Shown here: piece by piece, positions 7,407-55,037 of the stretch
Layout of the letters: each line of letters starts with the position of its first letter
How positions within the stretch are numbered: the first letter of the stretch is position 1
Assembly: GCF_024753565.1 (NCBI RefSeq)
Contig: NZ_JANTPT010000003.1
Coordinates: forward strand, 124,001 to 188,000
Source of the DNA: Mechercharimyces sp. CAU 1602
Lineage (GTDB): Bacteria > Bacillota > Bacilli > Thermoactinomycetales > JANTPT01
Direction: 5' to 3'
Length of the DNA: 64,000 nt
The notes under the pieces: model-generated
Told to the model about the DNA's origin: nothing
The model's database searches: none
The model's input: only the letters and a program-made list of their open reading frames with translations
Translations under genes and position numbers: made by a program

Positions 7407-7658
7407 ATGGAAGTCAAAGCAACTCCTATCAGTGCTGAGGAATTACAAAGTTATATGGTGTCAGAAAGTAGTAAGACGGATGTACGGCACGCTGAAGAAC
7501 GTGCGATCGACTTACGCGCTATTGATCTACGTGCCATTGATCTACGTGCGATAGATTTACGTGCGATCGACTTACGTGCGATCGACTTACGTGCGATCGA
7601 CTTACGTGCGATCGACTTACGTGCCATCGACCTGAGGGCGATTGATATCCGGGCATAA
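7407..7658 (+). CDS. Putative precursor peptide with ten RAIDL/RAIDI repeats
   Basis: An 83-residue product from the third ATG of an ATG-ATG-ATG run. That ATG (7407) is 7 bp from ggaggg, whereas the first at 7401 would abut the ribosome site. The first 31 or so residues (MEVKATPISAEELQ...HAEE) are leader-like and acidic. The rest is nine copies of RAIDL, one RAIDI and a final RA. Several repeats use different synonymous codons yet encode the same residues, which suggests selection on the peptide. It is the first gene of the co-directional cluster. Two readings are possible: a ribosomal-peptide precursor with a multi-copy core, or a short pentapeptide-repeat beta-helix (IDLRA register). The context of an M16 pair and a MATE exporter favours the first. 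No Cys, Ser, Thr or Lys occurs in the repeats, so lanthionine or azoline chemistry is excluded there. Confidence 0.6.
   Translation: MEVKATPISAEELQSYMVSESSKTDVRHAEERAIDLRAIDLRAIDLRAIDLRAIDLRAIDLRAIDLRAIDLRAIDLRAIDIRA
7500..7655 (+). repeat. 15-bp tandem coding repeat (10 full units plus 6 bp)
   Basis: Units read CGT GCG ATC GAC TTA with synonymous variants (CGC GCT ATT GAT CTA, CGT GCC ATT GAT CTA, and others). Units 5-8 are identical to each other and to unit 1, suggesting recent expansion. Units 2-4 and 9 differ only silently; unit 10 has Ile for Leu. Slippage or recombination could easily change copy number. Confidence 0.95.
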
Positions 7659-7678
7659 CAAGGGTGCGGAGGGGCTGT

Positions 7679-7694
7679 GGGGAGCATGCTCCTC
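7679..7694 (+). other. Small hairpin between precursor gene and next gene
   Basis: A perfect 12-bp palindrome (GGAGCATGCTCC, 7681-7692) sits in the 75-bp gap after the repeat-peptide gene. It lacks a clean T tract. It might stabilise the precursor mRNA end or allow partial termination, an arrangement common after ribosomal-peptide precursor genes. Confidence 0.3.
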
Positions 7695-7733
7695 CTATTC
7701 CTTTAACAATTCTAATGTGAGAGGGGGAGGGAA

Positions 7734-8669
7734 GTGGTTCACCTTGAACAGGTAGAGGCGTATGTACCAGAAGCGCGCGTCCCGATTGAACAATTAGGAG
7801 AGAGATTGGAGTTAAATCGCTATCAAATAAAACTCTTCCAGCGAATTCACGGATTACATGAGATATGTATGGATGAGGAGCAGTCACTCGTTTCGTTGTT
7901 AATTAAGCCATTGGCAAGAATTTTGATGTACGCTCCGAATGTGGTTGAGCACGTTCGCTATCTTGTTTATTGCCATACGATTAAGACAGTAACACCCTAC
8001 CCGATTAATGTATTGGAAGAGGTGAAGGAGGAGTTTGGTTTACAACATGCGCTCTCTTTTTCGCTCACACAGCAAAACTGTTCTTCTGGACTGGTAGCCA
8101 TGGAATTGGCAGATGATTTACTCCGTGGCGATGGCGATCCAGAGGCACGAGTACTTATTTTGTTGGGTGAAAAAGCTTCCCATCCGACGTTACAGCTGAT
8201 TCCCAATACGACCATAATGGGCGAAGCGGCTGCAGCATTAGTGGTGCGAGCCGGGGTGGGAAAAGATGAAGTGGTGGCGATACACCGTACGATTAGTGGG
8301 CAGTACGCTGCAGGTATCAATATCTCAGCAGAGAGCCTACGCCAGTTTGAACAGTCCTATGTTCCTACATTAGTAAAAACTATTCAGCTTACGCTAGATA
8401 AAGCAAATCTGTCTTTACAAGAGATAGAGTGGATATTACCTCATAATGTAAATCTATCTTCATGGACACAAGTGGCACGAGCGCTCTCATTTCCAGTAGA
8501 GAAAATTTACTTGGATAACGTATCGAAGTTAGGCCACTGCTTTTGCGCTGATTCGTTTATCAATTATCAAGATGTGGTGAAGCAAGGAATGATGCGGCGG
8601 GGTTCATATTATTTGTTGGTGACGGTAGGGTTGGGAGCCGTGTTTACGGTGGCGGTCATGCGTCATTAG
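7734..8669 (+). CDS. KASIII-like condensing enzyme, intact active site
   Basis: A 311-residue thiolase-fold protein of the FabH/KASIII type. The nucleophile is Cys116 in QQNCSSGL, the catalytic His is His237 in ILPHNVN (FabH has PHQAN), and the third position is His268 in KLGHCFCADS, where FabH has Asn. It therefore has a Cys-His-His set instead of the usual Cys-His-Asn. Starts at GTG 7734 with gggggaggga just upstream. Possible roles are chain initiation or extension on the cluster ACP, or acyl transfer as in CerJ/DpsC-type relatives. It precedes the ATP-grasp gene by 12 bp in the same operon. Confidence 0.75.
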   Translation: MVHLEQVEAYVPEARVPIEQLGERLELNRYQIKLFQRIHGLHEICMDEEQSLVSLLIKPLARILMYAPNVVEHVRYLVYCHTIKTVTPYPINVLEEVKEEFGLQHALSFSLTQQNCSSGLVAMELADDLLRGDGDPEARVLILLGEKASHPTLQLIPNTTIMGEAAAALVVRAGVGKDEVVAIHRTISGQYAAGINISAESLRQFEQSYVPTLVKTIQLTLDKANLSLQEIEWILPHNVNLSSWTQVARALSFPVEKIYLDNVSKLGHCFCADSFINYQDVVKQGMMRRGSYYLLVTVGLGAVFTVAVMRH

Positions 8670-8681
8670 GGGGGATAAGTC

Positions 8682-10052
8682 ATGCACGTACAAACATCAA
8701 CGTTCTGGTCGAAATGGAAAGAAGGAGTCGTTGGAGACGAGCAGGCAACTCTGATTTTGCTCGGTAACTTTGAGGTAGAGGAGTATTGGGCACAAGATCG
8801 TCTGAAATTACCAAGTGTGAGTGGGAAAGGGGGGCGTCGGATTGTTCATCGGATGGAGGAACTGGGCGTTTTTCTCGCCTCTACGGAAGACGTTGTGGTA
8901 ATGAAGGCAGGGATGGATGTTACTTATCAGCAATATATGCAAGAAATTAAACATCCACTACCTAACATGATCTCCTTATCCCGCAATATCCCTCACTTGT
9001 CGATTACAGAAAACTTATTGCAATGCGAGCAGACCATCGCCCAGTTAAAGATGTTGCGACAGGAGCATTCTGCGCTCTATCTTCTTCCTTTTGGTGTTTC
9101 CGGTCATGAGGAGGAGCTAGCACAGTTAACAGGAATTCCACTTGCAGTTCCCTCTCAAGCTATTTTCGAGCGAGTAAATAGTAAAATTTATTCGCGTAAG
9201 ATTAATGAGGAGTTAGGGATCAGACAAGTTCCGGGGGTTTGTTGTGAAGGAATAGCCGAATTACAGTCTGGATTTGCTCGTATGAGAGCATCTTTGACGG
9301 CAGGAAAAAAGATAGTGCTCAAAGATGCCCACGGTGTTTCCGGTAAAGGGATCACCGTAATTGAGTCGGAGAAACGTTTTCAACAGCTGCTTAAGATGTT
9401 GACTCGAAGTTGTACAGGGAAGAAGGAACAGGTGGCATTTGTCTTAGAGGAATGGGTGGAGAAGAGATGCGATCTTAACGTACAAGCTGTAATTACTCGT
9501 ACAGGAGAGGTGCTACTGCATGCCATAAAAGAAGCGGTAACTCGGGGAGGTGTGCATCAAGGACATTACTTTCCGGCTCGGTTGACGCCAACACAGCGAA
9601 CGCAGCTATATGAGGTAGTACAGAAGCTAGGACATGCCTTGTACGCAGATGGCTACTTTGGGATGATGGGGGTTGATGCGATGGTGGGTGTAGATGATTC
9701 CTTGTGGCCCAATGTAGAAATCAATGCTCGTCTAAATTTATCTACTTATCAGTCTCTTTTGGAAGAGCGCTATGTGGCAGCGGGACAGGTTATGTGGGCA
9801 AAGCATTACCCTGTTCAGTTGGTAAGGCCCCTCCCTTTTCGTGATTTACGAGATCGTCTAGACGATCTGCTTTTGACGAAACGAGGCGAATGCGGTCTTT
9901 TTATTCATAATCATGCAACGATGAATGCTGCTTATCAAGAAGATGGGAAACCATTTCCCGGTCGCTTGTATGCTCTTCTGATCGCTGATGAAGATGAACA
10001 ATTGTATGCATTAAACGATGAGGTGGAACAACGGTTGCAATCACTGATCTAG
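8682..10052 (+). CDS. ATP-grasp ligase, BtrJ / PGM1-like
   Basis: A 456-residue protein with a pre-ATP-grasp part and an ATP-grasp fold. A nucleotide-binding Lys and glycine loop are visible (KIVLKDAHGVSGKG, Lys214). The metal-binding segment is VDAMVGVDDSLWPNVEIN (Asp332, Glu346, Asn348). The following decarboxylase and ACP genes reproduce the butirosin BtrJ-BtrK-BtrI set. There BtrJ loads L-glutamate through its gamma-carboxyl onto the ACP pantetheine. By analogy this enzyme likely loads an amino acid onto the ACP; which amino acid is not visible. A peptide-ligase role, as in PGM1, is an alternative. SD at gggggat before the ATG. Confidence 0.7.
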   Translation: MHVQTSTFWSKWKEGVVGDEQATLILLGNFEVEEYWAQDRLKLPSVSGKGGRRIVHRMEELGVFLASTEDVVVMKAGMDVTYQQYMQEIKHPLPNMISLSRNIPHLSITENLLQCEQTIAQLKMLRQEHSALYLLPFGVSGHEEELAQLTGIPLAVPSQAIFERVNSKIYSRKINEELGIRQVPGVCCEGIAELQSGFARMRASLTAGKKIVLKDAHGVSGKGITVIESEKRFQQLLKMLTRSCTGKKEQVAFVLEEWVEKRCDLNVQAVITRTGEVLLHAIKEAVTRGGVHQGHYFPARLTPTQRTQLYEVVQKLGHALYADGYFGMMGVDAMVGVDDSLWPNVEINARLNLSTYQSLLEERYVAAGQVMWAKHYPVQLVRPLPFRDLRDRLDDLLLTKRGECGLFIHNHATMNAAYQEDGKPFPGRLYALLIADEDEQLYALNDEVEQRLQSLI

Positions 10053-10067
10053 AAGGAGGAAAAGACG

Positions 10068-11360
10068 ATGGATGGGCAATATCGAGTGCAGGGAAAGTCG
10101 CTTTCTGCGTTAGCAGACGAGTATGACACTCCTTTGTATGTATATGATGGCCATGTGATGGTAAATACATTTCGCTCGTTACAAGAATGTTTGAGTAATG
10201 AGTTTGAGTTTTTCTACTCACTTAAAGCTAACCCTAATCTATCAGTATATGCACTCCTACAGCAGTTGGGTGCACGAGCTGAAGTGTCGTCATTAACAGA
10301 GTTAGAGATAGCGATCCGTGCGGGTACACCTGCAGAAAATATCATTTTTTTAGGACCAGGTAAAAGTATGACTGAGCTGATAGCCTGTATCGACTATGGC
10401 ATTTATGCCATTGTGTGTGAGTCATTTGGTGAACTGGAGCAGATTGAGAGGCTGGCACAACAGAGGGGGCGCATCGTTGATGTGGCTTTGCGTATCAACC
10501 CGGCCTTTACAGTTAAAGGCTCCCGGTTGACGATGGGGGGGAAACCGCGTCAATTTGGCATCGACGAAGAACAAGTACTGGAGCAACTGCCATTGGTGCG
10601 TTCGTATCGACATATCCGAATGCTAGGGGTACACGTCTATATGGGTACTCGGATTTTAGAAGCAGATGTCATTGCTCAAAACACTGAGAAGATCTTTGCT
10701 CTGACCCGCCGAGTTGAGCAGAGATTAGGATATACACTGGATATGGTCGATATTGGAGGAGGATTAGGTGTTCCTTATTTTGACCAGGAGCAGGAGCTGG
10801 ATGTAGTAAGCTTAGCTAATAAGCTTAATCCACTGGTTGAATCGTTTCGGGGAGACCATCCGCATACGCGTATCATTATGGAATTGGGGCGTTATTTGGT
10901 AGGGATGAGCGGGATATTGGTGACTCGTGTTCGCTACAAAAAGGATTCCTTTGGGGAGACGTTTCTAATTGTGGATGGTGGAACGCATTGTCATATGGCG
11001 GCGGTGGGTATAGGGTCTTTCGTGAAACGCAATTTTCCAATCCGACATGTAGAGAAGTATCAATGTGACCCCACGCATTCGTATCACATCACAGGACCAC
11101 TTTGTACACCAAACGATCAGATCGGCAAGGCAGTAATGTTACCAGAAGTAGAGGTGGGGGATTTACTGGGTCTTTTTCATTCGGGTGCATATGGACCGAC
11201 CGCTTCTCCAGTCTTATTTTTAAGTCATGGATTTCCAGCAGAAGTGATGGTGTATAAAGGAGAAGCGTTTTTGATTCGAGAACGGGATACGACAGCTGAC
11301 ATGTTGCGCAAACAACGTTTACTAGACGGTATGAAAGTAGAAGCGAATACACGCCGATGA
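10068..11360 (+). CDS. PLP-dependent decarboxylase, BtrK / DAP-decarboxylase-like
   Basis: A 430-residue fold-type III (alanine racemase fold) PLP enzyme. The Schiff-base Lys is in FYSLKANPN (Lys53), a glycine-rich phosphate loop is DIGGGLG (229-234), followed by ELGRYL, and the partner-subunit cysteine is in GPLCTPND (Cys346). BtrK in butirosin synthesis decarboxylates a gamma-glutamyl-thioester on the ACP to give 4-aminobutyryl-ACP. The gene lies between the BtrJ-like ligase (15 bp) and the ACP (21 bp), so an ACP-tethered substrate is likely. It could instead act on a free diamino acid such as DAP, ornithine or arginine. Confidence 0.75.
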   Translation: MDGQYRVQGKSLSALADEYDTPLYVYDGHVMVNTFRSLQECLSNEFEFFYSLKANPNLSVYALLQQLGARAEVSSLTELEIAIRAGTPAENIIFLGPGKSMTELIACIDYGIYAIVCESFGELEQIERLAQQRGRIVDVALRINPAFTVKGSRLTMGGKPRQFGIDEEQVLEQLPLVRSYRHIRMLGVHVYMGTRILEADVIAQNTEKIFALTRRVEQRLGYTLDMVDIGGGLGVPYFDQEQELDVVSLANKLNPLVESFRGDHPHTRIIMELGRYLVGMSGILVTRVRYKKDSFGETFLIVDGGTHCHMAAVGIGSFVKRNFPIRHVEKYQCDPTHSYHITGPLCTPNDQIGKAVMLPEVEVGDLLGLFHSGAYGPTASPVLFLSHGFPAEVMVYKGEAFLIRERDTTADMLRKQRLLDGMKVEANTRR

Positions 11361-11381
11361 GGCAGAGAAAGGGTGGTTAAT

Positions 11382-11657
11382 ATGAAAAGAGAGCAAGTGG
11401 TTGTGGCGATTAAGCGCTCCTTAAAAGAAGTGCTAAATATGAAAGAAGTGGATCATATCACAGAGAAGACCTCTCTTTTTGATGATTTGGCGCTGGATTC
11501 CACGTCGGTGTTGGAATTATTGATGGTGTTAGAAGATGAAGTGGAAGGCTTGTATGTGGATCCAGAGACGTTAGAACCGCACCATTTTGAAACAGTGGGG
11601 TCGTTGGCGACGTATATTGAATCGCATCTTAAAGATGTGACAGAGCATGTTGGCTAA
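11382..11657 (+). CDS. Acyl carrier protein
   Basis: About 91 residues, the size of a free ACP. The phosphopantetheine site is LALDSTSVLEL (Ser40), with helix II and III patterns after it. The ATG at 11382 is preferred over a GTG at 11373 because aaagggtgg precedes it at a suitable distance. It probably holds the amino-acyl unit made by the two upstream enzymes, then serves the KAS-like and dehydrogenase-like proteins. Its 3' end overlaps the next gene by 11 bp. Confidence 0.85.
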   Translation: MKREQVVVAIKRSLKEVLNMKEVDHITEKTSLFDDLALDSTSVLELLMVLEDEVEGLYVDPETLEPHHFETVGSLATYIESHLKDVTEHVG

Positions 11658-12501
11658 TCTCTATGTGGAGCATCTGGATTATCATTGTTTTACTCAGCAG
11701 CGTCCCTATCTATTTGATGAGCTCGTGCATCGCTTTCAGCAGGAGTTGTTGCAGCCGCATGGTCTGCATGTAGATACGGCCTTGCTGGAACGGAGCTCAC
11801 ACCACTCTTTTTTAGAGATGAGTAAGTCTTTATTAGATCCATTGGCTGTACAAGGAAAGTTAGAGGGTGTAGATTTGGTGGTATTGGCATACTGCACTCC
11901 AGATGTGAATGTAACGGATTCTGTTGTTTGCCACTTGATTCATCAATATCAGTTGGAAGGGGCTAATGGCTTTGCTATCTCTGATATGGGGATGGCGGCT
12001 AGTTGGACGGCATTACAAGTGATTGCGGATCGCTTTTACACTGGTTCTAGTCAAAAGGCAATTTTGATCGCCTTAGACCAAACCACATTTCCTAATCGCA
12101 TAGCTCATGTTCATGATCGGCAACTACGGGATGCAGGTTCGATTCTGCTTATGAGCCGAACAGCTAGTGAGGAAGAGAGTTGGAGCTTAGTAGACAGGAT
12201 GTATCGATACTCTCCTCAGGGAATAGAGGGAAGGGTGAACGATACAGTTGCTAGTTGGAGTTTGGAATATTCACTCAAAGAAGAGCGGGCGGTTATCGTT
12301 GCCCATCGCTCGTTGGAACCGTGTCTGTATTGGGTAGATCAGCCTGTTGTTTATTATGATGCGGATACGCACCTGGTAACGGCTCCCTTTATCACATGGC
12401 ACCAGCAATTAAAGGGAGCGCCCGAGTACGTGTGGTGGATGCATTACGATGATGTTCATCCTTTCTATTACAGTGCTCTCTTTCGTTCCCATCAGGTATA
12501 A
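11647..12501 (+). CDS. Degenerate KASIII-like protein (no active-site Cys)
   Basis: A 284-residue protein with thiolase-fold features such as VDLVVLAYCTPD and DRQLRDAGSILLMSR. At the nucleophile position it reads ISDMGMAASW, so no cysteine is present, and the C-terminal PHN and GH motifs are missing. It is shorter than its relatives at 7734 and 12520. A plausible role is a non-catalytic partner of the intact KASIII-like enzyme encoded next, like a chain-length factor. Translationally coupled to the ACP gene by overlap. Function inferred from context only. Confidence 0.55.
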   Translation: MLANLYVEHLDYHCFTQQRPYLFDELVHRFQQELLQPHGLHVDTALLERSSHHSFLEMSKSLLDPLAVQGKLEGVDLVVLAYCTPDVNVTDSVVCHLIHQYQLEGANGFAISDMGMAASWTALQVIADRFYTGSSQKAILIALDQTTFPNRIAHVHDRQLRDAGSILLMSRTASEEESWSLVDRMYRYSPQGIEGRVNDTVASWSLEYSLKEERAVIVAHRSLEPCLYWVDQPVVYYDADTHLVTAPFITWHQQLKGAPEYVWWMHYDDVHPFYYSALFRSHQV

Positions 12502-12519
12502 AGGAGGGGAGGGCGATAG

Positions 12520-13479
12520 ATGAACGGTACATTTGGTATTAAGGGAATAGGAACCTATATCCCTGCTACTTTTCAGACAGTAGAAGAGGTCTTGGCAGGA
12601 GTAGGAGCAGGAGTGGGCGAACGGCGTTTGTTGGAACGGATTCACCAACTGCGCCAAATTCCTATGGTGAAGTCAGGGCAGCGTTTGGAAGAAACTATCA
12701 CCTATGCGCTCGAAGATCTAAAGACAAAAGTGGAAAGCTGTTCGATCGATGTGGCTCTCTATGCTCATTCTCAGTTTACACATGTACCCTTCCGCTACGA
12801 TCTTCTGTATAAAGTACTTGAGGTGCAGGGATGGGAACATGTCCCCTGTTATGGTGTGGATCAGCTAAATTGTGCTTCTTTTTTTGCTGCATTGCAATTG
12901 GCGCATTCCATCTTTGCTCGGGATGAATTGGTAGAGAATGTGCTTTTAATATCCGCTGATCAGAGTAATTTTTTGTCTTATGGACGCTATATTTCTCGAG
13001 CTACGATTATGGGTGATTCGGCTACTGCTCTGCTGCTTACACGTACAGGTTTTCGCCATCGCTATCTTTTTACATCTGTGCATTCAGATCCACGTTTTCA
13101 TCGTGGCTTCTATGATTCTGAGGAGAATCGGAAAGCATTTAACCACGACTATCTTTCCAATATTATGGAGGGAATGGAGCATACATTGCGGGAAGTTGGG
13201 ATGGGGCTGGAAGAGGTGGATTTCATTTTGCCGCACAACGTAAATCACACCACATGGCGACGCTTTAGCGAGCGTAGCGGCATGAAAGCAGATAAAGTGA
13301 TGACCGCATGGATTTCGCAGTTGGGTCACACTTATACTACGGATGCCCAGCTCATTTTAGCACAACTGTTAGCAAAGTCTGTGTTTCAAGCGGGAAATCG
13401 GTACATGATGGTGGGAGTTGGATTGGGTTGCTTTGTGGGTACCGCTATCTTTGAAGTGATAGAGGAAGGAGTAGGCTGA
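12520..13479 (+). CDS. KASIII-like condensing enzyme, second intact copy
   Basis: A 319-residue paralogue of the protein at 7734. Active-site residues: Cys118 in DQLNCASFF, His239 in ILPHNVNHTTW, and His270 in SQLGHTYTTDAQ, again Cys-His-His rather than FabH-type Cys-His-Asn. The glycine-rich C-terminus (MMVGVGLGCFVGTAIFEV) is typical of the fold. Strong site aaggagggga before ATG 12520. Its stop overlaps the next start (TGATG). With the degenerate protein just upstream it may form a heterodimer. Confidence 0.75.
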   Translation: MNGTFGIKGIGTYIPATFQTVEEVLAGVGAGVGERRLLERIHQLRQIPMVKSGQRLEETITYALEDLKTKVESCSIDVALYAHSQFTHVPFRYDLLYKVLEVQGWEHVPCYGVDQLNCASFFAALQLAHSIFARDELVENVLLISADQSNFLSYGRYISRATIMGDSATALLLTRTGFRHRYLFTSVHSDPRFHRGFYDSEENRKAFNHDYLSNIMEGMEHTLREVGMGLEEVDFILPHNVNHTTWRRFSERSGMKADKVMTAWISQLGHTYTTDAQLILAQLLAKSVFQAGNRYMMVGVGLGCFVGTAIFEVIEEGVG

Positions 13480-14129
13480 TGGAAACAACATTAAGGCGCA
13501 CAAATCAATCAGAAATCATGCGGATGTGGCGATATTTGCAAAAAGAACCTTGGGGTGGGATTTTGCGTGTGTGGGAAGAAGAAAGGATGGAGACAGTGTA
13601 TGCTCCCCACGGTTTTACGTTGCTGAGTCGAGGGAGGGGGGAGAAAAAACGGGTGTTTTCTTACTTAGACAGGGTGCCTGATCAGTGGTTGGAAAGAGAT
13701 CATGTCGAAGTGTATAGGGTACAAAGAGGTGTGTCGGAGTATACGCCGGAGGGGCAAGAGGAAGGTGCATGGCAACAGAGGTGGGAAGAGCGTGTTTTTC
13801 ATCTGCGCTTTGCGCTGGCGCTGATGGTATTGGAGCAGTGTAAACAACACTTAGAAAAGCGGCGCGCTCAGGGGATACCTACGTTGCAACATCAGATGGT
13901 GAAAAGTTTGATTTCTGATTTTTTGATCTTGTTGGAATGTGTGTACAGTAGAGATTCTACTTCTTCCGATTTGGAACAAAGGCGTTTGCGTCACTTTGAT
14001 CATACAAGATTGGATCAACAAGTATGCTCGTTATTAAAACTGATGGGTGGACATGGATATATAAGTTCCGGCTGTAGTCGCTGGGGCCATGCGCTCAGCG
14101 TGATTCATAACGTATGGGTAGTGAGGTGA
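13479..14129 (+). CDS. Acyl-CoA-dehydrogenase-like stub (C-terminal domain)
   Basis: A 216-residue protein. Its last third resembles the C-terminal helical domain of acyl-CoA dehydrogenases (LLKLMGGHGYISSGCSRWG, cf. the GG-GY motif). The N-terminal and beta-barrel FAD-binding domains are absent and the first 100 residues are not recognised. A full dehydrogenase follows 5 bp downstream, so this may be a structural or regulatory partner, as in heteromeric ACADs. The family link is weak and rests on that motif plus context. Confidence 0.45.
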   Translation: METTLRRTNQSEIMRMWRYLQKEPWGGILRVWEEERMETVYAPHGFTLLSRGRGEKKRVFSYLDRVPDQWLERDHVEVYRVQRGVSEYTPEGQEEGAWQQRWEERVFHLRFALALMVLEQCKQHLEKRRAQGIPTLQHQMVKSLISDFLILLECVYSRDSTSSDLEQRRLRHFDHTRLDQQVCSLLKLMGGHGYISSGCSRWGHALSVIHNVWVVR

Positions 14130-14134
14130 AAGGG

Positions 14135-15298
14135 ATGGTATCGACAGCTGCTTGGAAGGAATACGAGGAGCAATTAACCGTTATCTCTCAACGCTTCCGT
14201 CAAATCGGGATGGAGTTGGAAAGGGAGCCGGAGATGATCGCTACAGTGGTGGAAGAAGAGCCGCTTCGGATCTATCGCAAACAGATGCTTCCTCCTGACT
14301 ACAACGATGAACCAGTAAAAACGGCAGATGGAACCTTGTTTTATGGACTTACCTGTCAGGAGCGGGTGCGCTCTTTTGAAAAATTGGCATATGGTGATTT
14401 TGGCGTTACTCTCGCTTGTCCAGGCCCGTCTTTGTCAGGGATGGTGATTCAGGACTTAGCAGATGAAGAGCAACAGGATCGTTACTATACACGCTTAGTG
14501 GAGAAGCCGACTTGGACTTTTTTCGCTTTGACTGAGCCAGGTTATGGTTCTGATCCGATGGGGATGGAAACTCGGTTGACGAAGGAACAAGTAGGAGACG
14601 GATATCGCCTACATGGGGAGAAAATGTTTATTGGTAATGGTGCGAGAGCAGATGTGGGCGTTGTGTTCGCCCGCAAAACATCAGGTCCTCTCGGGATCGA
14701 GGTGGTACTGGTAGAAACAAATCACCTAGAGGGATTTAAAGCAGATTCATTGGAGACATGGGGGGTGCGCGCAGCAGGTCTTAGCCGTTTAACTTTTACT
14801 CATTGTCACATCGCTGAGGAGCAAGTGGTCGGTCGTCATTTACGCCCGATGAAGCGAGGAATGATGGGGGCTGTTACCACCTTTAACAAGATGCGTCCTA
14901 GCATTGCAGCTGCAGCATTAGGGATTGCGCAAGCTGCGTATGACTATGTATATGAACAGCGCCGTCAGTGGTTGGAAGCGGAGAAAACTACACTACAAAA
15001 CTTGGAGTTAGAGCTTATATCTGTACGGCAACTAATTCGGCGAGCGGCAGAGGAAGTGGATGCGAACCCTCGTAATGGCCATTATGCCTCGGTGGCGAAA
15101 GTACAGGCATCTTCATTGGCAGAAAGGATGACAGATTCAGCGCTTATGTTGATGGGAGCTGGTTCGATCTACGAGCACCCTTGTTTATACAAATGGTATC
15201 GTGATGCACGTGCATGTGAGTTTATGGAGGGGACGTCGCATATACAAAAACAGACTGTGTTTCAGGCCTTTATGAGTGGGAAGATGCAACATGTATAG
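14135..15298 (+). CDS. Acyl-CoA/acyl-ACP dehydrogenase family enzyme
   Basis: A full-length flavoprotein of about 387 residues. It has the FAD-contact motif FALTEPGYGSDP, the central-domain segment GEKMFIGNGARAD, and the base-containing segment EFMEGTSHIQK near the C-terminus, where Glu is the ACAD catalytic base. The start at ATG 14135 fits the upstream gtgaggtg better than the ATG at 14114. In this operon the likely substrate is an acyl chain on the cluster ACP, giving alpha,beta-unsaturation; no dedicated ketoreductase or dehydratase is encoded nearby. The 3' end overlaps the next gene. Confidence 0.8.
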   Translation: MVSTAAWKEYEEQLTVISQRFRQIGMELEREPEMIATVVEEEPLRIYRKQMLPPDYNDEPVKTADGTLFYGLTCQERVRSFEKLAYGDFGVTLACPGPSLSGMVIQDLADEEQQDRYYTRLVEKPTWTFFALTEPGYGSDPMGMETRLTKEQVGDGYRLHGEKMFIGNGARADVGVVFARKTSGPLGIEVVLVETNHLEGFKADSLETWGVRAAGLSRLTFTHCHIAEEQVVGRHLRPMKRGMMGAVTTFNKMRPSIAAAALGIAQAAYDYVYEQRRQWLEAEKTTLQNLELELISVRQLIRRAAEEVDANPRNGHYASVAKVQASSLAERMTDSALMLMGAGSIYEHPCLYKWYRDARACEFMEGTSHIQKQTVFQAFMSGKMQHV

Positions 15299-16232
15299 GG
15301 AGCAGAAACAAAACCGCATAAGCATTGATGCATTAGCACTTACACGTGTGAAAGCAGACAGATATCAGCATGATACGGTTCCGCCTGATGATTTCTATGA
15401 AATGCAGTTGCACTACGATGCGGAGTGTTATTATCACCAGCGTTCATGGCATCAATTGCCGACGCAGTCGATCAGAGTGGAAGGAAGAAGGGTCTCACAT
15501 GAAGAAGTTTCACTGTGTACACTCTCCTCTTTAGAGGGGATACTGCCACCGGGGAGAATGACGTCTGCACAAGTGTTGTTAGTAGCGCATTCGTTTTATA
15601 CTCGCCTCTCTGCGAATCCCATGCTGGCACGGCTTTTAGAATACTGGAAAAAAAGACCGCGCATCGCACTCGGTTTGTCGCATTTAGGAGAGGTAGCCTC
15701 AACGGAAGGGGTACGTGTCGCGGATTGGACGCTAGCTGAAGGTGAAACAGGAGTTCTACTTCTCAGTGAGCAACAGTTTTTCCTCCCACACCGATTCGCG
15801 CCCCCTCCAGCGCTTCCGCTTGGAGATGCAACGGTCGCGCTCTCTCTATCAAAGGACGGGGAAACGATAATTTTAGAGCAGCATAAGCGTGGGGTGATGC
15901 AGAACAAACGAATTTTACCCGCATGGGAAGATTGGATACAGCAGGTGAAGCGGATCGTGGAGGCAGAGCGAGATGAGGTTGATTGGGTTGTTATTCAGCA
16001 GGCTTTTTCTACACAGGTAGTAGAAGATGAGAAGCTGTTTGTACGTCAGCATCAGATTGATCATAACTTACAATGCACGGATGTTTGGATCACGTTAGCA
16101 GAAGGGTTAACGCAGAATGTGATTAGGGTTGGTGATCGCGTGTTACTCCTTTCCTTTGATCGGCTTCATACCTATTCAATGATACAGCTGTTGGTGCAAG
16201 CGCGTCCACGGATGAGTGATGCGTGGATATAA
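15291..16232 (+). CDS. Highly degenerate KAS-like protein
   Basis: About 313 residues, similar in size and region order to the KASIII-like proteins of the cluster. The nucleophile region reads IALGLSHLGEVAST without Cys, and the His-Asn motif is replaced by VVIQQAFS. It retains a thiolase-fold style (VLLVAHSFYTR, ETGVLLLS). It is probably non-catalytic; a partner for one of the two intact KAS-like enzymes is likely. The ATG at 15291 (overlapping the dehydrogenase stop) is preferred; 15276 is the alternative. The family call is tentative. Confidence 0.4.
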   Translation: MYREQKQNRISIDALALTRVKADRYQHDTVPPDDFYEMQLHYDAECYYHQRSWHQLPTQSIRVEGRRVSHEEVSLCTLSSLEGILPPGRMTSAQVLLVAHSFYTRLSANPMLARLLEYWKKRPRIALGLSHLGEVASTEGVRVADWTLAEGETGVLLLSEQQFFLPHRFAPPPALPLGDATVALSLSKDGETIILEQHKRGVMQNKRILPAWEDWIQQVKRIVEAERDEVDWVVIQQAFSTQVVEDEKLFVRQHQIDHNLQCTDVWITLAEGLTQNVIRVGDRVLLLSFDRLHTYSMIQLLVQARPRMSDAWI

Positions 16233-16250
16233 CGAGAGAGAGAAGAGAGG

Positions 16251-17639
16251 ATGGAGTCGATGGGAAGACTGGATTATGTGCATGGCAATATAACAAAACT
16301 TTTATATCTTACATTTATTCCAATGTTGATTGCTTCCATCGTCAACGTAGTTATGGTAGTTTCACAAGCGGTTTTTATTGGACAAGTGGGGGGAGAGGCA
16401 GTAAATATACGCGGCTTCTATTTGCCGATCTCTTTCTTTATGACAGCATTGCTAGAAGCGATGCAGTTGTCGACACAAGTGGTGCTGGCAAAGCGAAAAG
16501 GGGCGGGTCAACAAAAACAGATCGCTCAAAGCTTTTACCGCTTCCTGTTTTTTGGCTTATTGCTTATGGGAATGTTTGGAGTGCTAATCATCGTAACACT
16601 GCCGTTACTAACAACCTTTTTCGGTGTTGATGCAGCATATGCAGGACTTTTTCAACGCTTCGTCAGTGGGATGGTTGTGGTGGAACTGATTGTAGTGATG
16701 AATATTGTGATCGCAGCTAGCCTACGTGCACTCGGAAAAGTGAACATCGCCTCGTTTATTGCAGTTATGGGTTCCGTACTCAATATTGCGCTGATGTATT
16801 ATTTTATTCTTGTACGTGGCATGGGATTGCAAGGGATTGTGCTGGCGTTTCTCATTACTAGTAGTCTTCAGTTTATCGCTAGCTATAGCTATATAGTATG
16901 GCTAAAAGAGATTCCGATCGGATTTCCGCGAGGGATACGAGGAAAAGATGAGATGGTGACAGCGATTTTACGTGGGGTTGGCGTGCCTGTTTTCCTATCG
17001 TATTGCTCTATCACCTTGGGGTTATTGTTATTTAACCTGATCATGGAGTCGTTTGGTGATGTAGCCGTAGGTGGTTATGGTGCGGCGTATAGCATCCAAA
17101 CCCTTGTGATTATACCAGGCATTTTATTGGGATCGGCAATGGGCATTGTGATGAATCAAAACTTAGGATCAGGGAAGTTGGAGCGAGTGTTTGCTGTTTA
17201 TAAAAAAGGGATCTTGCAGGCATTCTATTTCTACCTCCCGCTGTCCCTCTTCGTCTTCCTACTGCGGGAACCACTTGCTTCTGTCTTCTTTCGCGCTGCT
17301 GATCGGGAGGTTTTTTTACCATATGCTGTGGGCTATTTGGCGATTGTGGCTCCTACTTATCTCTTTATGGGTCCAATGTTGACGACGTTGATCACATTGG
17401 AACAGATGGGGAAAGGAATGAAAGCACTCGGGATGAATCTTACTTATTTTCTTCTCATCGCGCTCCTCGGTTGGGCGGTAACAACCTGGACGAATGATGT
17501 GAGCTCATTCTATTGGACGGTCGCCTTTTGTAACCTAATCGGCATATCCGGCTTGTATTATGGATATCGTCTCATGCATGCGGAGTTTAGTGTTTCTCGT
17601 CAGGAAGGTGAAGAGAAAGAAATGGTGTCAGGGGCATGA
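16251..17639 (+). CDS. MATE-family efflux transporter
   Basis: A 462-residue integral membrane protein with about twelve hydrophobic segments in two homologous halves. Typical MATE features include the N-terminal LTFIPMLIASIVNVVMVV segment and VAVGGYGAAYSIQ in the second half. It likely exports the cluster product by cation antiport. The start may be ATG 16251 or ATG 16260; the purine-rich stretch at 16235-16250 serves either. It sits within the operon. Confidence 0.9.
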   Translation: MESMGRLDYVHGNITKLLYLTFIPMLIASIVNVVMVVSQAVFIGQVGGEAVNIRGFYLPISFFMTALLEAMQLSTQVVLAKRKGAGQQKQIAQSFYRFLFFGLLLMGMFGVLIIVTLPLLTTFFGVDAAYAGLFQRFVSGMVVVELIVVMNIVIAASLRALGKVNIASFIAVMGSVLNIALMYYFILVRGMGLQGIVLAFLITSSLQFIASYSYIVWLKEIPIGFPRGIRGKDEMVTAILRGVGVPVFLSYCSITLGLLLFNLIMESFGDVAVGGYGAAYSIQTLVIIPGILLGSAMGIVMNQNLGSGKLERVFAVYKKGILQAFYFYLPLSLFVFLLREPLASVFFRAADREVFLPYAVGYLAIVAPTYLFMGPMLTTLITLEQMGKGMKALGMNLTYFLLIALLGWAVTTWTNDVSSFYWTVAFCNLIGISGLYYGYRLMHAEFSVSRQEGEEKEMVSGA

Positions 17640-17659
17640 GTGGCGGAGGAGGAACACGG

Positions 17660-18769
17660 ATGAAACCCGTTTATGTTTGGCAAGAAGTAGAAGGTGGGTA
17701 TGTGGGTGCCGATGAAGCGGTCACCCACTTTTATAAATTAGATGATGATCCGAGTTTACAAAGGCGCTCGCCGCCGAGGCTTTGTCATGTTAAAGCTCCT
17801 ATGCATCCGTGCTTTCGGTTTGCACCGATGGTGGGGCATCCGCGAGCGCAGGTTGTGATTCTTGATATTCCGTATGCAAAAGGGTCATGTGCGGAGGGAT
17901 CAACCGTAGCACAATTTGGCGAGCTGTTACGTGTACAGACTGGGCAGAAGCCCGTATGGGCACGACTTGATGAGAAGTTTGCTTCAGGGATAAGAGACTT
18001 AGATGATGGTGGATCTCTTTTTTCTGGCCTTCTGTTTGAGGATTGGGGTACGCTTCAACTGGGCCAACCAGAAGAGCCGATGTCTACACTGGCTGAAGTG
18101 GTGCAGAAGGTGCTGGAAGAGCAGCAGATCTTGTTTTCGTTAGGCGGAGATCATTCGCTCACGTATCATGTGATTCAACAAGAGTTGGCGTATATCGAAG
18201 AGCCGCTTATCGTGATTGATTTCGATGCCCATCATGACTGCGGCACAACGCCTCTGTTAGCAGACGAAGTGAATCATGCTAACTTTATCCGTCATTTGTT
18301 GGCAGATGAGCGAATCGCGGCGATTGTACAATTGGGCGTGCGTGGAGTTCGATCGTGGGGGCAGTGGTGTGAACATCCTAAACTGAGGCAAATCTCTGCT
18401 AAAAAGATGAAGCCGGAAACGATTGAATCGGTGTTGTATGAATTGATGGGGAAGCACCCTCGTGCGGTTCATTACGTTACCTTTGATATGGATTGTTTGG
18501 ACCCGAGTCAGTTTCCCTTAGTGGATTATCCAGTTGCTAATGGCCCTACTTGGGAGCAAGTGCGACTATGTTTACAATCTGTCTTTCAGATGAGAGCCCC
18601 TTTGCTGGGGGTAGATATGGTAGAGGGACAAGGGGTTCTTATCGAAGGGAAAGTTCCGATAGCGTATGAGATGGCAGTGCAAGTGTTCGCTCATCTCTTG
18701 GACGGGATCAAGAGAAGATATTCTGTATTGAAGCAGTATGAAGGAAAAAGAGAGGAGCGGAGAGGGTGA
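17660..18769 (+). CDS. Arginase/agmatinase-fold ureohydrolase
   Basis: About 369 residues, longer at the N-terminus than free arginases. The binuclear manganese motifs are all present: GGDHSLTYH (His165), DFDAHHDCG (Asp189, His191, Asp193) and TFDMDCLDP (Asp276, Asp278), plus NHANFIRHL where agmatinases have a substrate-loop His. Known members hydrolyse guanidino groups to amines and urea. Here the substrate may be arginine in the RAIDL repeats, a guanidino-acyl intermediate (as in amino-marginolactone pathways), or free arginine/agmatine. The start at 17660 follows ggaggagg. The stop overlaps the next start (GTGA). Confidence 0.8.
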   Translation: MKPVYVWQEVEGGYVGADEAVTHFYKLDDDPSLQRRSPPRLCHVKAPMHPCFRFAPMVGHPRAQVVILDIPYAKGSCAEGSTVAQFGELLRVQTGQKPVWARLDEKFASGIRDLDDGGSLFSGLLFEDWGTLQLGQPEEPMSTLAEVVQKVLEEQQILFSLGGDHSLTYHVIQQELAYIEEPLIVIDFDAHHDCGTTPLLADEVNHANFIRHLLADERIAAIVQLGVRGVRSWGQWCEHPKLRQISAKKMKPETIESVLYELMGKHPRAVHYVTFDMDCLDPSQFPLVDYPVANGPTWEQVRLCLQSVFQMRAPLLGVDMVEGQGVLIEGKVPIAYEMAVQVFAHLLDGIKRRYSVLKQYEGKREERRG

Positions 18770-19743
18770 AACTACAAAATCTATTTGAAGCAGAACAAGA
18801 GAAAGTTCACGCTGAGATTGCGCGACAGCTGCGGGAGAACGGGGGAATTACGCTCGGTTACTTCTTCGCTTTGATGAATATCACTAAGGAGTTATTACCG
18901 CTACAACAGCGCTTCTGTCCAGAGAAGGTATGGGTGGATTATCTGGCTTTTGCTCAAATGCTGGATCGTATTCGAGAACAACCAGCACTGTTTGGTGGAT
19001 GGGATGAGGTTGTGGGTGCGGAACATCGCCAACAAATCTTGCAGGAGGGGGGAGCTTTTCTCACCTGGCATACGGGGTTCGTTCGACATCATCTTGAAGC
19101 GATTGCAATAGGACGTGCCATGTTGGCCGAGTGGGAGTTACCCTTTTATCAGGTGGTTGATCGTGAGCAGTTTAATCATGAACAGAAGTGGGAGATGTGG
19201 GAGCGCTTAAGAGATATTCGGAATATTCAGTTGATAAATGCAGAAGACCAATTAATCGGACTAAAGCTGTTTCAACATTTACGTCGAGGGGGAGCGTTTT
19301 GTTTGAAATTAGATGGGCAAAAGGGAGTAAATGCTGATCAGCATACGCTGCGAACGAAGTGGCTCACCTCCATAATTGAAACACGAAGTGGGGTGTTTCG
19401 CATTTTGGCACGGGCCCAGAAGAAAGTTTCGCTGGTGGTGATGTCGATGACAGAGGACTTCCATTCCCGAATCGTATTCCACCCACCTCAACAGCTGGCT
19501 GGACAAATTGAGAAGGCGTGTGATGATTCATTTGCAGTTGTACGAGAAGAACTACTCCGCTATCCGTGGCAGTGGCGATTTTGGGATCGCCATCATGAGC
19601 AAGTGGTGGCGTGGCAAGATGTAAGTGTTGGAAATGAAAACATGGACACCAAGCGAATCAAGTGGGTAACGCAACAAGTTGGAAAAGAGGGTCTTGGTTT
19701 AGATGTGGAGACGGGACAAGTATATCAGCTGTCACCAAAGTAA
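18766..19743 (+). CDS. LpxL/HtrB-like acyltransferase
   Basis: A 325-residue protein whose middle part resembles LpxL-type acyltransferases: AFLTWHTGFVRHHLE (around His102), then LRRGGAFCLKLDGQKG (LpxL has GG...DQ at this place), and a C-terminal YPWQWRFW. In LpxL the catalytic motif is HX4(D/E). Here the acidic place after His102 reads Arg107, so the chemistry may differ. These enzymes move acyl groups from ACP or CoA to amines or hydroxyls. In this cluster it could acylate the peptide or an amine released by the ureohydrolase (inference). GTG start overlapping the previous stop. Confidence 0.5.
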   Translation: MKLQNLFEAEQEKVHAEIARQLRENGGITLGYFFALMNITKELLPLQQRFCPEKVWVDYLAFAQMLDRIREQPALFGGWDEVVGAEHRQQILQEGGAFLTWHTGFVRHHLEAIAIGRAMLAEWELPFYQVVDREQFNHEQKWEMWERLRDIRNIQLINAEDQLIGLKLFQHLRRGGAFCLKLDGQKGVNADQHTLRTKWLTSIIETRSGVFRILARAQKKVSLVVMSMTEDFHSRIVFHPPQQLAGQIEKACDDSFAVVREELLRYPWQWRFWDRHHEQVVAWQDVSVGNENMDTKRIKWVTQQVGKEGLGLDVETGQVYQLSPK

Positions 19744-19760
19744 GGGCAGGGGGAGGAAAG

Positions 19761-20996
19761 ATGAAGGTGAGGGAAGATGTTTCGTGTGAAGCTGCGGTTA
19801 CTCATCTACAGACTATCCCTTTTTTAAAGGCGGATTATGTAACGTTGACGATTGCTAATGAGATAGGAATAGAGGAGACAAGGTTTGCTCTCTTATCATC
19901 TCTCTTAGTGTCTACCGAGGTGAAGGCAGAACTATATCAGATGTGTGGAGCGGAGCTGACGGGAAGGGTTTTGCGGAAAGGGAGAACACAACTGTTACAG
20001 CTACAGGTTACTTCTCCGAATGAAGCATACCTTTGGTTTGAGCGATCTCTATTGAAAAAAGCATTGCATCTCTTAACTGTACGGGTGTGGAAGGATGAAG
20101 CGTGGAAAAAGGATGAGTTTTTTCGACGGCAGGTACATATTCATGCCAGCCGCATTCAGATGGAGCAAAGTGACGAAGAACAAAGGAGAATAAGGCAGTG
20201 CATGGCTACAGTTGTGGGAGAAGAACATTCTTTAGCGCGCTGGGGAAAAATAGAAGAATTACTTTCCTTAACGATAGATGAGATGAATCAGGTATTAGAT
20301 GAGGTGTATCGCTATGCTCCTTATCATTTACATGTATTAGGTGCGGAAGTAGAGAAGATAGAGCAGTGGTTACATGAGCATAAATTAGATCAGGAAGGCA
20401 CAGTTAGAAAGAAGGGAAGGTCGTTTGCGCGCAGTCTCCCTTCTGGAGAAGCTGTTCCTATCTACCGTGGGAACTGTCAGGTGGATACGGTTCCGATTAC
20501 GGCAGCAATATGGACGGGTATTCGCTTTGCAGACGCTGACTATTTCCCGTTGTTGGTGGTGATGAATCGATTACGCACTCAATTACGTATACGTTTGCGT
20601 GAACAGAAGGGATTTCTTTATGCACTCTCATGCGAAGCAGATCCTCTTCTAGAAATAGGTTGGATCCACATGCGAGTGAAAGCGGGAGAAGTGGAAGAAG
20701 CGATCGATGAGAGTAAGCAGGTGTTGATGGAGATGAAGAAGGGGAAGTGGTCTCGTTCTTTATGGTATGAGTCTATACAGTCGATTCAGCATTATATTCG
20801 TTATGGAATGGACGTTCCCCAGGTATGTGCTGAGGTTAGTTTACACGGGTGGTTGAGTGGAAGTATTCCGAGCGATGAGAGCGCAAGGAAGAGATTGGAG
20901 ATAATGACGATAGGGGATTGTACACGTGTGGCCACACGTCTTCAGCTGGCGGCAATTCAGGTTGGAATGACAAAGGAGGGGAAAGGAGATGGTTAA
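19761..20996 (+). CDS. M16-family peptidase-like, non-catalytic subunit
   Basis: About 411 residues, the length of a two-domain M16B subunit. The N-terminal region lacks the HXXEH zinc motif. The second half keeps M16 style (VDTVPITAAIWTGIRFADADYFPLLVVMNRL; then QLRIRLREQKGFLYALSC). Two-subunit M16 proteases usually pair one zinc-bearing and one non-zinc chain, and the active chain follows with an 8-bp overlap. The ATG at 19761 follows gggggaggaaag; the longer ORF runs back into the acyltransferase gene. It probably serves processing of the repeat peptide, as AlbE/AlbF-type pairs do in subtilosin clusters. Confidence 0.65.
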   Translation: MKVREDVSCEAAVTHLQTIPFLKADYVTLTIANEIGIEETRFALLSSLLVSTEVKAELYQMCGAELTGRVLRKGRTQLLQLQVTSPNEAYLWFERSLLKKALHLLTVRVWKDEAWKKDEFFRRQVHIHASRIQMEQSDEEQRRIRQCMATVVGEEHSLARWGKIEELLSLTIDEMNQVLDEVYRYAPYHLHVLGAEVEKIEQWLHEHKLDQEGTVRKKGRSFARSLPSGEAVPIYRGNCQVDTVPITAAIWTGIRFADADYFPLLVVMNRLRTQLRIRLREQKGFLYALSCEADPLLEIGWIHMRVKAGEVEEAIDESKQVLMEMKKGKWSRSLWYESIQSIQHYIRYGMDVPQVCAEVSLHGWLSGSIPSDESARKRLEIMTIGDCTRVATRLQLAAIQVGMTKEGKGDG

Positions 20997-22269
20997 ACCC
21001 GCTTTTACTTCTCATCCTGCGATCGAAAGCTTCCGCACAGCGATGGGAATGGAAGTATTGGTTGTTCCGTTGACAGGGTGTATGCGCACGTATGCTACCT
21101 TAGCTATTGGGATGGGGGCGATGGAGCAGTATGTTTCTAGAAAAGGCGATGGTCGACTCCGTCTCCCCTTCGGTACAGCTCACTTTTTAGAGCATCTTGT
21201 TTATCATCAATTTTTATCTAATATTGGGATGGAGGGGGATACACATGCAGTGACATCGCACTGGCTAACTTGCTATCAGGTAGCGACAACGAGGGAATGG
21301 CAGCAAGCGATCGTCCCATTGTTGGCGATTGCGGAGGAAGAGCAGCTTACTGTAACGGAGTTTATTATGCGGCGAGAACGACGTGTCATCTCACATGAAA
21401 TCGAGATGTATCAGGAGCAAGGTAACGTAGTAGTGGATCAATTGTTAAAGCGTGCCCTCTTTCCATCTGGACATCCGTTAACGGTAGATATTGCGGGTAC
21501 GACCCGGAGTGTCGCTGATGTATCAGCTCCACTGTTGCAACAATGTTTTGACATTTTTTATCGAGCCGAGCGGATGAAGTTGGTTCTGGTTGGGAATGTG
21601 ACATCAGATGAGGTACATGCTCGATTGGGTGACTTTGAAAGCATTCCCGCTGAGGATAGTAGGAGAGAGGAAGTTATTCCGACTGAGAAGAGATGGGAGT
21701 TTTATTCATCAGGTAAGGGCGGAGTGGTGGTTGAAAGCAGGCCCGTCCCACTGCCCTTCCTTAAGGTGGGGTTTATGGAGCAAGGTGTTCCGTTGGCAGG
21801 GGAGCTCTTATTACGCTACTTGTCGATAGCGGAAGTGGCGTTGGAAGCACTTTGGGGGAAAGAATCAGAATTTTATCAGTCTCTATTTGAACAGGGTGTG
21901 ATTGGTGATCACTTTAATTGGGAGAGTAAAGCTATACGGGGATGTGCTTATTCTTCCTTAGGAGGGGTGACGGCTAACCCTCAGATGGTCGTTGACCAAA
22001 TCAAGGAGAGACTGGTGGAAGTAAGTCATCTGGGGCTGGCGGAAGAGAGGATTGAGCGGGCGAAGGAGAGGCGTGCAGGCAAGCACCTTCTTGCCGCTGA
22101 TGATTTACGTCACTATAGTATAACGCTGGCACACGGTATGATGCAACAGATGATGGAATGGAAGCGTCTTGCTATACTGAAGAGTGTGACTATATCAGAT
22201 GTAGAAGCATGGATTCAATCTCACTGTAAAATAGAAGGACTGCGTGTAGCGGTCGTGGAAAAGGGGTAA
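20989..22269 (+). CDS. M16-family zinc protease, catalytic subunit
   Basis: A 426-residue M16B peptidase. The inverted zinc motif is HFLEH (His65, Glu68, His69) and the distal metal-ligand Glu is in RRVISHEIE (about Glu137). No signal peptide is visible, so it likely works in the cytoplasm. It is translationally coupled to the non-catalytic partner. It is the last gene of the cluster and likely removes the leader or cuts the repeats. No strong terminator is seen before radA, only a weak hairpin (GGGAGA/TCTCCC around 22279-22300). Confidence 0.85.
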   Translation: MVKPAFTSHPAIESFRTAMGMEVLVVPLTGCMRTYATLAIGMGAMEQYVSRKGDGRLRLPFGTAHFLEHLVYHQFLSNIGMEGDTHAVTSHWLTCYQVATTREWQQAIVPLLAIAEEEQLTVTEFIMRRERRVISHEIEMYQEQGNVVVDQLLKRALFPSGHPLTVDIAGTTRSVADVSAPLLQQCFDIFYRAERMKLVLVGNVTSDEVHARLGDFESIPAEDSRREEVIPTEKRWEFYSSGKGGVVVESRPVPLPFLKVGFMEQGVPLAGELLLRYLSIAEVALEALWGKESEFYQSLFEQGVIGDHFNWESKAIRGCAYSSLGGVTANPQMVVDQIKERLVEVSHLGLAEERIERAKERRAGKHLLAADDLRHYSITLAHGMMQQMMEWKRLAILKSVTISDVEAWIQSHCKIEGLRVAVVEKG

Positions 22270-52973: not shown

Positions 52974-53951
52974 TTAAGCTGCGATATCACGTTTGTTAAA
53001 GACAATCCAAGAGACGGCAATAAAAATGATCCAATGGATAGCGAGGATAGCGAGTGAAAATGATAATGTTTGCCCGTCGAAGTAAGGTGGTGAATTGGAT
53101 AGATATATACTTAAATCGGTATTGGCTAGGAAGTAATACTTTACAAAGTTTATATCTTGGATAGAGGCGATGACGATGACAGGTTGACTGGCAAACATTA
53201 GGAAGATAGATGTACCAATAGCGACAGCACTGCTACGGAAAATACTCGAAATGGCAAATGCGAACGTTACAATGATGAGTAGAGAAATCGTAGCTAATCC
53301 ATATTCTCCAAGCACACTTGCGATCATACTCTTCTCAATCACTTTGCCATCTTGATATAACAGTTTTGCTGAATCTACTTGATCAAAGCCAAAGAGGAGG
53401 GCCCCAAAGAGAAAAGAGCTAATAAAAGTGAGTAAGAGAAGGCTAAGCGCAAACAGAAATGATGAGATGTATTTAGAGAGTAAAATCTTGCTACGAGAAG
53501 CTGAACGAATCAGAAGGAGCTTGATGGTGCCCCAAGAAAACTCTCCAGCGATACTGATGGAAGAGACGATAACCGTAAACAAGATGATAAGTGTAACGAG
53601 GCCGACAGACTGATTCATAAAGCCCCAGAATGTAGACTCTGTCGGTGGAAGATCATGGTCGAGTCGATATTGATTGAGAGCAATCTGTTCTTCCCATTGC
53701 TCCATAACATCGGCAGGTAGGTCTTCAGAGTTATTTAGGCTCTGTTGTAAATGGTTGTTCTCTTCTTTAAGTGACTCTTGCCATTCATTGTTTACCTTAA
53801 TATCGCCAAAGACGGAACCGGTCGCTTGATGCTTGCTAAGCATAGCATGTGCGAGAGAAGCGAGAAGAATAAGGCCAATCATGACCAACGTTCCGATGCG
53901 ACGGTATGTTTTCATGTTTTCATTTTGAATAAGCCGGATTAAATTAGCCAA
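52974..53951 (-). CDS. ABC-2 type permease, pair 1
   Basis: 325 residues. One N-terminal membrane segment after NENMKTYRRIG, a roughly 75-residue external loop (QESLKEENNHLQQSLNN), then about five more membrane segments. The loop-adjacent SIAGEFSWGTIKLLLIRSASRSKILLSKY segment is typical of bacitracin/lantibiotic-type ABC-2 permeases. It overlaps its ATPase by 8 bp. It has a close paralogue at 61748. Substrate unknown. Confidence 0.85.
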   Translation of the reverse strand: MANLIRLIQNENMKTYRRIGTLVMIGLILLASLAHAMLSKHQATGSVFGDIKVNNEWQESLKEENNHLQQSLNNSEDLPADVMEQWEEQIALNQYRLDHDLPPTESTFWGFMNQSVGLVTLIILFTVIVSSISIAGEFSWGTIKLLLIRSASRSKILLSKYISSFLFALSLLLLTFISSFLFGALLFGFDQVDSAKLLYQDGKVIEKSMIASVLGEYGLATISLLIIVTFAFAISSIFRSSAVAIGTSIFLMFASQPVIVIASIQDINFVKYYFLANTDLSIYLSNSPPYFDGQTLSFSLAILAIHWIIFIAVSWIVFNKRDIAA

Positions 53952-54870: not shown

Positions 54871-55037
54871 CGATGTAGCCTCCTTTGGTAAGATCATCAC
54901 ATCTGTATTTAGAAACTATAAATAATAGAAAAAATATAATGATTACGGTTCATGCTGCTTCCTAAAAAGATGGCGGGCTTTATTTATTAAGGACAGCTAG
55001 CAAAAAAATGTTTATCTATTTCTATTGATATAAGAAT

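Follow-up and report, generated by a model that had tools for sequence, protein, structure and literature searches.

A candidate peptide arginase encoded with an arginine-repeat precursor peptide in Mechercharimyces sp. CAU 1602 and other Bacillota

Results

The gene at 17660-18769 (+) of the window, by which we mean the whole 64,000-nucleotide stretch that was analyzed, very probably encodes a peptide arginase that converts Arg residues of the peptide encoded at 7407-7658 (+) to ornithine. This assignment was made by comparing sequences, and the observations that carry it are gene content, co-occurrence, conservation of Arg in the peptide, and replacement of that Arg by Lys where the arginase is absent. 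The initial annotation had named the gene as a peptide arginase candidate, and the proposal gained support from Arg-bearing peptides in 29 of 29 arginase loci and from Lys in the peptide of an arginase-free cluster, G029.

The open reading frame at 17660-18769 is intact and encodes 369 aa. An alternative ATG lies upstream at 17636 and would give 377 aa, but the shorter form was preferred because homologues begin at the MKP position, after GGAGGAGG. The binuclear-metal motifs of an arginase-fold enzyme had been described as intact, and this was borne out. PF00491 matched at 4e-35 in the Pfam scan (121.9 bits against a gathering score of 22), and all metal ligands were present: H165 in GGDHS, D189, H191, and D193 in DAHHD, and D276 and D278, the third motif reading DMDCLDP. 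H206 and E322, which correspond to the usual proton-shuttle His and guanidinium-binding Glu, were invariant in 18 homologues. The protein did not reach the NCBIfam equivalog cut-off for agmatinase (84.3 vs 174.3), arginase (45.7 vs 227.6), or formimidoylglutamase (hutG; 50.5 vs 229), and we regard it as a probable new subfamily of PF00491. An AlphaFold2 model had a pLDDT of 87, and agmatinases aligned to it at Z 28-30. Because agmatinases are the closest solved structures, a small-molecule substrate stays compatible with the fold alone. The protein had also been said to carry a long N-terminal extension. Approximately 60 residues do precede the conserved catalytic core, but agmatinase structures align to the model from residue 4-8 onward, and the extension is therefore only partly special. 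An argument from missing alpha-amino-binding residues in the pocket was dropped, as the aligned plant arginases also seem to be without the usual DxD.

The peptide at 7407-7658 has 83 aa; after a leader, MEVKATPISAEELQ...EERA, come nine IDLRA units and one IDIRA unit, so that the core holds ten units with one Arg each and ends R-A-stop. Its leader and unit are conserved in 21 Paenibacillus clusters. The units are encoded by a 15-bp tandem repeat at 7499-7631 (+), with 8.9 copies and a score of 182, far above chance. Four codons (CGT, CGC, AGG, and CGG) encode the repeat Arg, and this variation of the codons while Arg is kept fits selection on the residue itself. The unit had been given as RAIDL with one Arg on offer; the single Arg holds, but IDLRA is the better way to write the unit because the peptide ends on R-A. 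Likewise, the arginase had been placed beside the peptide, which is correct in that both belong to one operon within the same all-plus-strand run, but loose in that the arginase gene lies about 10 kb downstream.

That run comprises 15 genes from 7407 to 22269 and is flanked by housekeeping genes of the mcsB/clpC type before it and the radA/disA type after it, as named from reading the translations. All of its genes are on the plus strand. The peptide gene is followed by genes for a KAS III-like protein with Cys-His and a GHxFxxD motif (7734-8669; PF08541, 3e-15), an ATP-grasp ligase (8682-10052; PF02222, 3e-11), a PLP decarboxylase (10068-11360) closest among solved structures to BtrK (1.1e-91, vs 4e-53 for diaminopimelate decarboxylase), and an acyl carrier protein, or ACP (11373-11657; PF00550, 1e-6). 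Next come a degenerate KAS III-like partner that lacks the active-site Cys (11647-12501; no match in the Pfam scan), a KAS III-like protein with Cys-His and a GHxxxxD motif (12520-13479; Pfam scan and motif comparison), a small partner that is probably a degenerate C-terminal part of an acyl-CoA dehydrogenase (13479-14129; no Pfam match, judged by eye), an acyl-CoA dehydrogenase (14114-15298; PF00441, 3e-21), a degenerate KAS III-like protein without Cys (15276-16232; PF08541 at 0.08 only), and a MATE exporter (16251-17639; PF01554, 1.5e-34). The arginase gene stands between the exporter gene and that of an LpxL/LpxM-fold acyltransferase (18766-19743). The last two genes encode an M16 peptidase-like partner of the YmfF type (19662-20996; NF047422, 4e-22), the start of which overlaps the acyltransferase end and is probably in truth downstream of the overlap, and an M16 peptidase of the YmfH type with an HFLEH zinc motif (20989-22269; NF047421, 2e-56).

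Two of the four KAS III-like genes encode Cys-His and the GHxFxxD-type third site and two lack the Cys, an arrangement conserved in the clusters compared; an active and an inactive member may function together, in the way that the two chains of a type II polyketide synthase do. The ATP-grasp, BtrK-like decarboxylase, and ACP genes are consecutive (8682-11657), which places the logic of the butirosin side chain inside a peptide cluster. Elsewhere in the window, the minus strand carries two closely placed genes for subtilisin-like proteases (55232-56509 and 57327-59165), with a similar ABC transporter pair on either side (52974-54900 and 61748-63674).

When 398 genomes of the class were searched with the arginase, 12 proved to have close relatives. 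Further searches brought the total to 29 arginase loci in 28 genomes, the window included (28 further loci, in Bacillota). Single-sequence arginase scans of viral and genome contigs gave no match, although an alignment-based scan did find relatives; searches of plasmids and a second scan of viral sequences also gave none. One distant match (G666, 109 bits) was set aside as an ordinary ureohydrolase without the acyltransferase or other reference genes. The full gene order was found in 22 of the 29 loci, namely the window and 21 Paenibacillus genomes (genus from matching records); among 75 Paenibacillus genomes, the arginase and the acyltransferase occurred in one and the same set of 21. The remaining seven loci are minimal operons with a short peptide, an M50 membrane protease, the arginase, the acyltransferase, and usually an MFS exporter; the ACP, decarboxylase, and synthases are absent from all seven. 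Some genes appear split or stop-bearing in the cluster copies of L138, L143, L145, and L146, from decay or poor assemblies.

In every arginase locus, a leader-bearing short peptide was encoded upstream of the maturation genes. These peptides (33 ORFs counted over the 29 loci, one record being present twice) are mostly tandem repeats, and in all 29 loci the peptide ends exactly R-A-stop (full type) or R-C-stop (minimal type). The leaders carry related motifs (KATPIT-LEQL, PISSEEL, PLTVEEL, VSLEEL, and PVDAKDL), and the units among relatives include IDLRA, VEARA, AAARA, VSARA, RADVAT, GDVVRC, ASGRC, and VIRC, across which Arg and the following Ala or Cys are the sole invariant residues. The spacing from Arg to Arg was 5 in 159 cases, 6 in 13, and 4 in 4. 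In an arginase-linked peptide type from Lysinibacillus there is no repeat and the core holds just one Arg. In L149 and L150, the M50, arginase, and acyltransferase genes are preceded by two and three near-identical copies, respectively, of a peptide of 33 aa with the end VIRCVIRC. The leader pattern with an R-[AC] end occurred in 29 of 30 family records and in 0 of 74 other ureohydrolase loci; both patterns were picked after the peptides had been viewed, and the control is accordingly a background measure rather than a blind test. The system has the features of a RiPP: the precursor is gene-encoded, its leader is conserved and its core variable, and genes for maturation, proteolysis, and export lie beside it.

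A search with the acyltransferase profile identified three more loci, G029, G368, and G352, all without the arginase. G029 is a full cluster in which the other genes and the leader are kept. Its MATE and acyltransferase genes are 14 bp apart, which leaves no room for the arginase, and an arginase homologue was not found in the G029 genome at 1e-18. The G029 peptide, MSMKATPIQTADLKKSLEETRAADAKATAAKASAAKA..., shares the KATPI leader; its core comprises 28 Lys-Ala units at a spacing of exactly 5, and Lys occupies the positions taken by Arg in all arginase clusters. The Arg at the boundary (ETR) is kept, so the change is confined to the core residue. G368 and G352 are minimal operons of a second, independent lineage. 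Their peptides (e.g. MKKLTAKELTSLAVVRKSVSCSCTISKK) keep the leader-end Arg and then have no Arg and at least one Lys each (5 of 6 ORFs read); their core is organized differently, and a clean Arg-to-Lys replacement at aligned positions was seen in one full-size cluster only, G029. At least 2 separate changes are required to account for the Lys state on the tree of the acyltransferase. GC bias was considered as the cause of the switch and rejected, as Arg-type loci go down to 33% GC and a Lys-type locus is at 50%. At L171 (7734-8357), an arginase-free M50/acyltransferase/MFS operon is preceded by short Lys/Cys peptides of at least four kinds that share one leader type. The presence of Lys without the arginase and of Arg with it is explained most simply if the position needs a primary amine and the arginase makes ornithine there. 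The Arg of the arginase-cluster peptides is thus best read as an ornithine in disguise.

The LpxL/LpxM-fold protein accompanied the peptide system in 32 of 32 loci (29 with the arginase and 3 without). PF03279 matched 10 of 17 homologues, at best at 1e-8, and the window copy itself was unmatched. A PDB sequence search with the acyltransferase profile gave no match, and it was the fold search alone that placed the protein (Foldseek: LpxM 5knk, 3.5e-10; PatA, 2e-9). Fold and profile agree with LpxL/LpxM membership, but the catalytic HX4D/E dyad of that family does not: His102 is kept and the acid is replaced by Arg107, giving HX4R. Arg107 was invariant in 14 sequences, two of which have a one-residue insertion. 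This replacement makes acylating activity uncertain. As the arginase's constant partner, however, the protein makes acylation of Orn or Lys the likely next step, and with the selidamides as a parallel we lean slightly toward acylation of that amine by the LpxL/LpxM-fold enzyme.

Discussion

We propose that the arginase hydrolyzes the guanidino group of Arg in each IDL/I-R-A unit to give ornithine and urea, with up to ten conversions per window peptide and a loss of 42 Da for each. The purpose would be to provide primary amines at regular spacing, and the LpxL/LpxM-fold enzyme would most likely acylate each freed amine. Where the cluster is full-size, its own ACP would provide the acyl group. 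An amino acid would be loaded there by the ATP-grasp enzyme, in a manner perhaps like that of BtrJ, and decarboxylated while ACP-bound by the BtrK-like enzyme; the chain would then be worked on by the KAS III-like proteins and the acyl-CoA dehydrogenase. Gene content makes this assembly of the chain, with BtrK-type decarboxylation, a tentative suggestion. The M16 pair may cut the peptide and the MATE protein may export the product. Taken together, these steps could describe a new RiPP class, an idea that we put forward with some reserve, in which each unit has an amine residue (Lys, or Orn made from Arg by a PF00491 arginase) and the LpxL-fold transferase loads an ACP-built, BtrK-type acyl chain on each, up to approximately 28 polyketide-like or amino-acyl chains.

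Other scenarios deserve consideration. The enzyme could instead remove the guanidino group from a small-molecule chain, either ACP-bound or released, as in amino-marginolactone synthesis, the Arg repeats then being unrelated. The initial annotation had offered such an ACP-derived chain as its alternative, and in its favor the full cluster does have KAS III-like genes along with those for an ACP, an ATP-grasp enzyme, and a BtrK-like decarboxylase. We consider it very unlikely, since in the seven minimal operons the arginase is paired with an Arg-ended peptide although genes for an ACP, a decarboxylase, and a synthase are all missing, and since it does not predict Lys in the peptide of the arginase-free full cluster. 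Equally poor odds attach to an arginase or agmatinase whose product, free ornithine or putrescine, would be a building block joined by the cluster to another molecule. The nearest profiles and folds are indeed those of agmatinases, but all agmatinase/arginase equivalog scores are far below cut-off (84 vs 174 bits), and the switch of the peptide residue with the presence of the arginase would be left unexplained. Still more improbable is a reading of the peptide as a small beta-helix protein of pentapeptide repeats, with the arginase as a neighbor unrelated to it. Weak sub-cut-off matches to pentapeptide repeats were obtained (NF052603, 8e-7; PF25296, 3e-4); the strict 5-residue period, however, holds for the window peptide taken by itself, whereas spacings of 4 and 6 occur besides 5 among relatives, and membership was rejected on the period. 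The relatives also lack the A(D/N)LXX pattern. A conserved leader and a peptide-arginase pairing that recurs in 29 loci also speak against a chance neighbor.

A variant of the favored explanation, compatible with its first step, is that the arginase makes peptide ornithine and that the amine is used otherwise than in LpxL-like acylation, for example in cross-linking or as a final cationic group. The replacement of HX4D/E by HX4R in the acyltransferase relatives favors such a use, as do landornamide-type products, which keep free ornithines. Against this, the acyltransferase-fold protein is the arginase's constant partner, the three arginase-free loci retain it together with Lys-bearing peptides, and fatty-acylated Orn is known from the selidamides. 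We therefore regard another use of the amine as possible but unlikely.

Peptide arginases are rare, and we found one described case with the PF00491 fold. The family reported here is a PF00491 subfamily whose likely substrate is encoded in the genome; the natural Arg/Lys swap is a built-in control, and the minimal operon is of a size suited to direct testing. If the proposal is true, it adds a repeat-based family of ornithine RiPPs, a new kind of candidate side-chain acyltransferase, and a way to make peptides in which many modified amines stand at regular intervals. The full-size cluster may further link fatty-acid-like synthesis with a ribosomal peptide. In the open-access literature searched we found no description of the peptide motifs or gene combination, and the repeat substrate, acyltransferase partner, minimal operon, and joint cluster also appear to be undescribed there.

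The described case is KgrD, an Mn arginase of family PF00491 from the enteropeptin RiPP cluster, which converts peptidyl Arg to Orn (PMC12703449), and the window arginase would therefore not be the first PF00491 peptide arginase. The two share the family, the RiPP setting, and, as proposed here, peptidyl Arg as substrate. KgrD, however, requires a thiomorpholine beside the Arg, made by another enzyme of the enteropeptin cluster, and no radical SAM thiomorpholine synthase or Fe-S methyltransferase was detected among the window cluster proteins scanned with Pfam. Gene content sets the systems apart further, as the window peptide is a tandem repeat and its partner an LpxL-like acyltransferase. 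Peptide arginases of the OspR type carry out the reaction proposed here, on several precursor Arg residues, and they do belong to another family, PF12640, as the initial annotation had stated. Their motifs are DXHXD, EEH(N/H)EAF, and LDIDLDYFSC, compared to GGDHS, FDAHHDCG, and FDxDxLDP in the window family, and they lack the shuttle His that the window arginase has. The OspR motifs are absent from the window arginase, for which the Pfam scan matched PF00491 alone and not PF12640.

The joint presence of the ACP, ATP-grasp, and BtrK-like decarboxylase genes resembles BtrI, BtrJ, and BtrK of butirosin. In the window no aminoglycoside genes were seen, and the cluster adds the KAS III-like pairs, the acyl-CoA dehydrogenase, and the repeat peptide. 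The selidamides, RiPPs with N-acylated Lys or Orn, are similar in that an amine side chain is acylated and in that Orn is made by an arginase in some members. In contrast to the selidamides, the transferase proposed here has the LpxL/LpxM fold, and the modifiable residue occurs up to 28 times per peptide.
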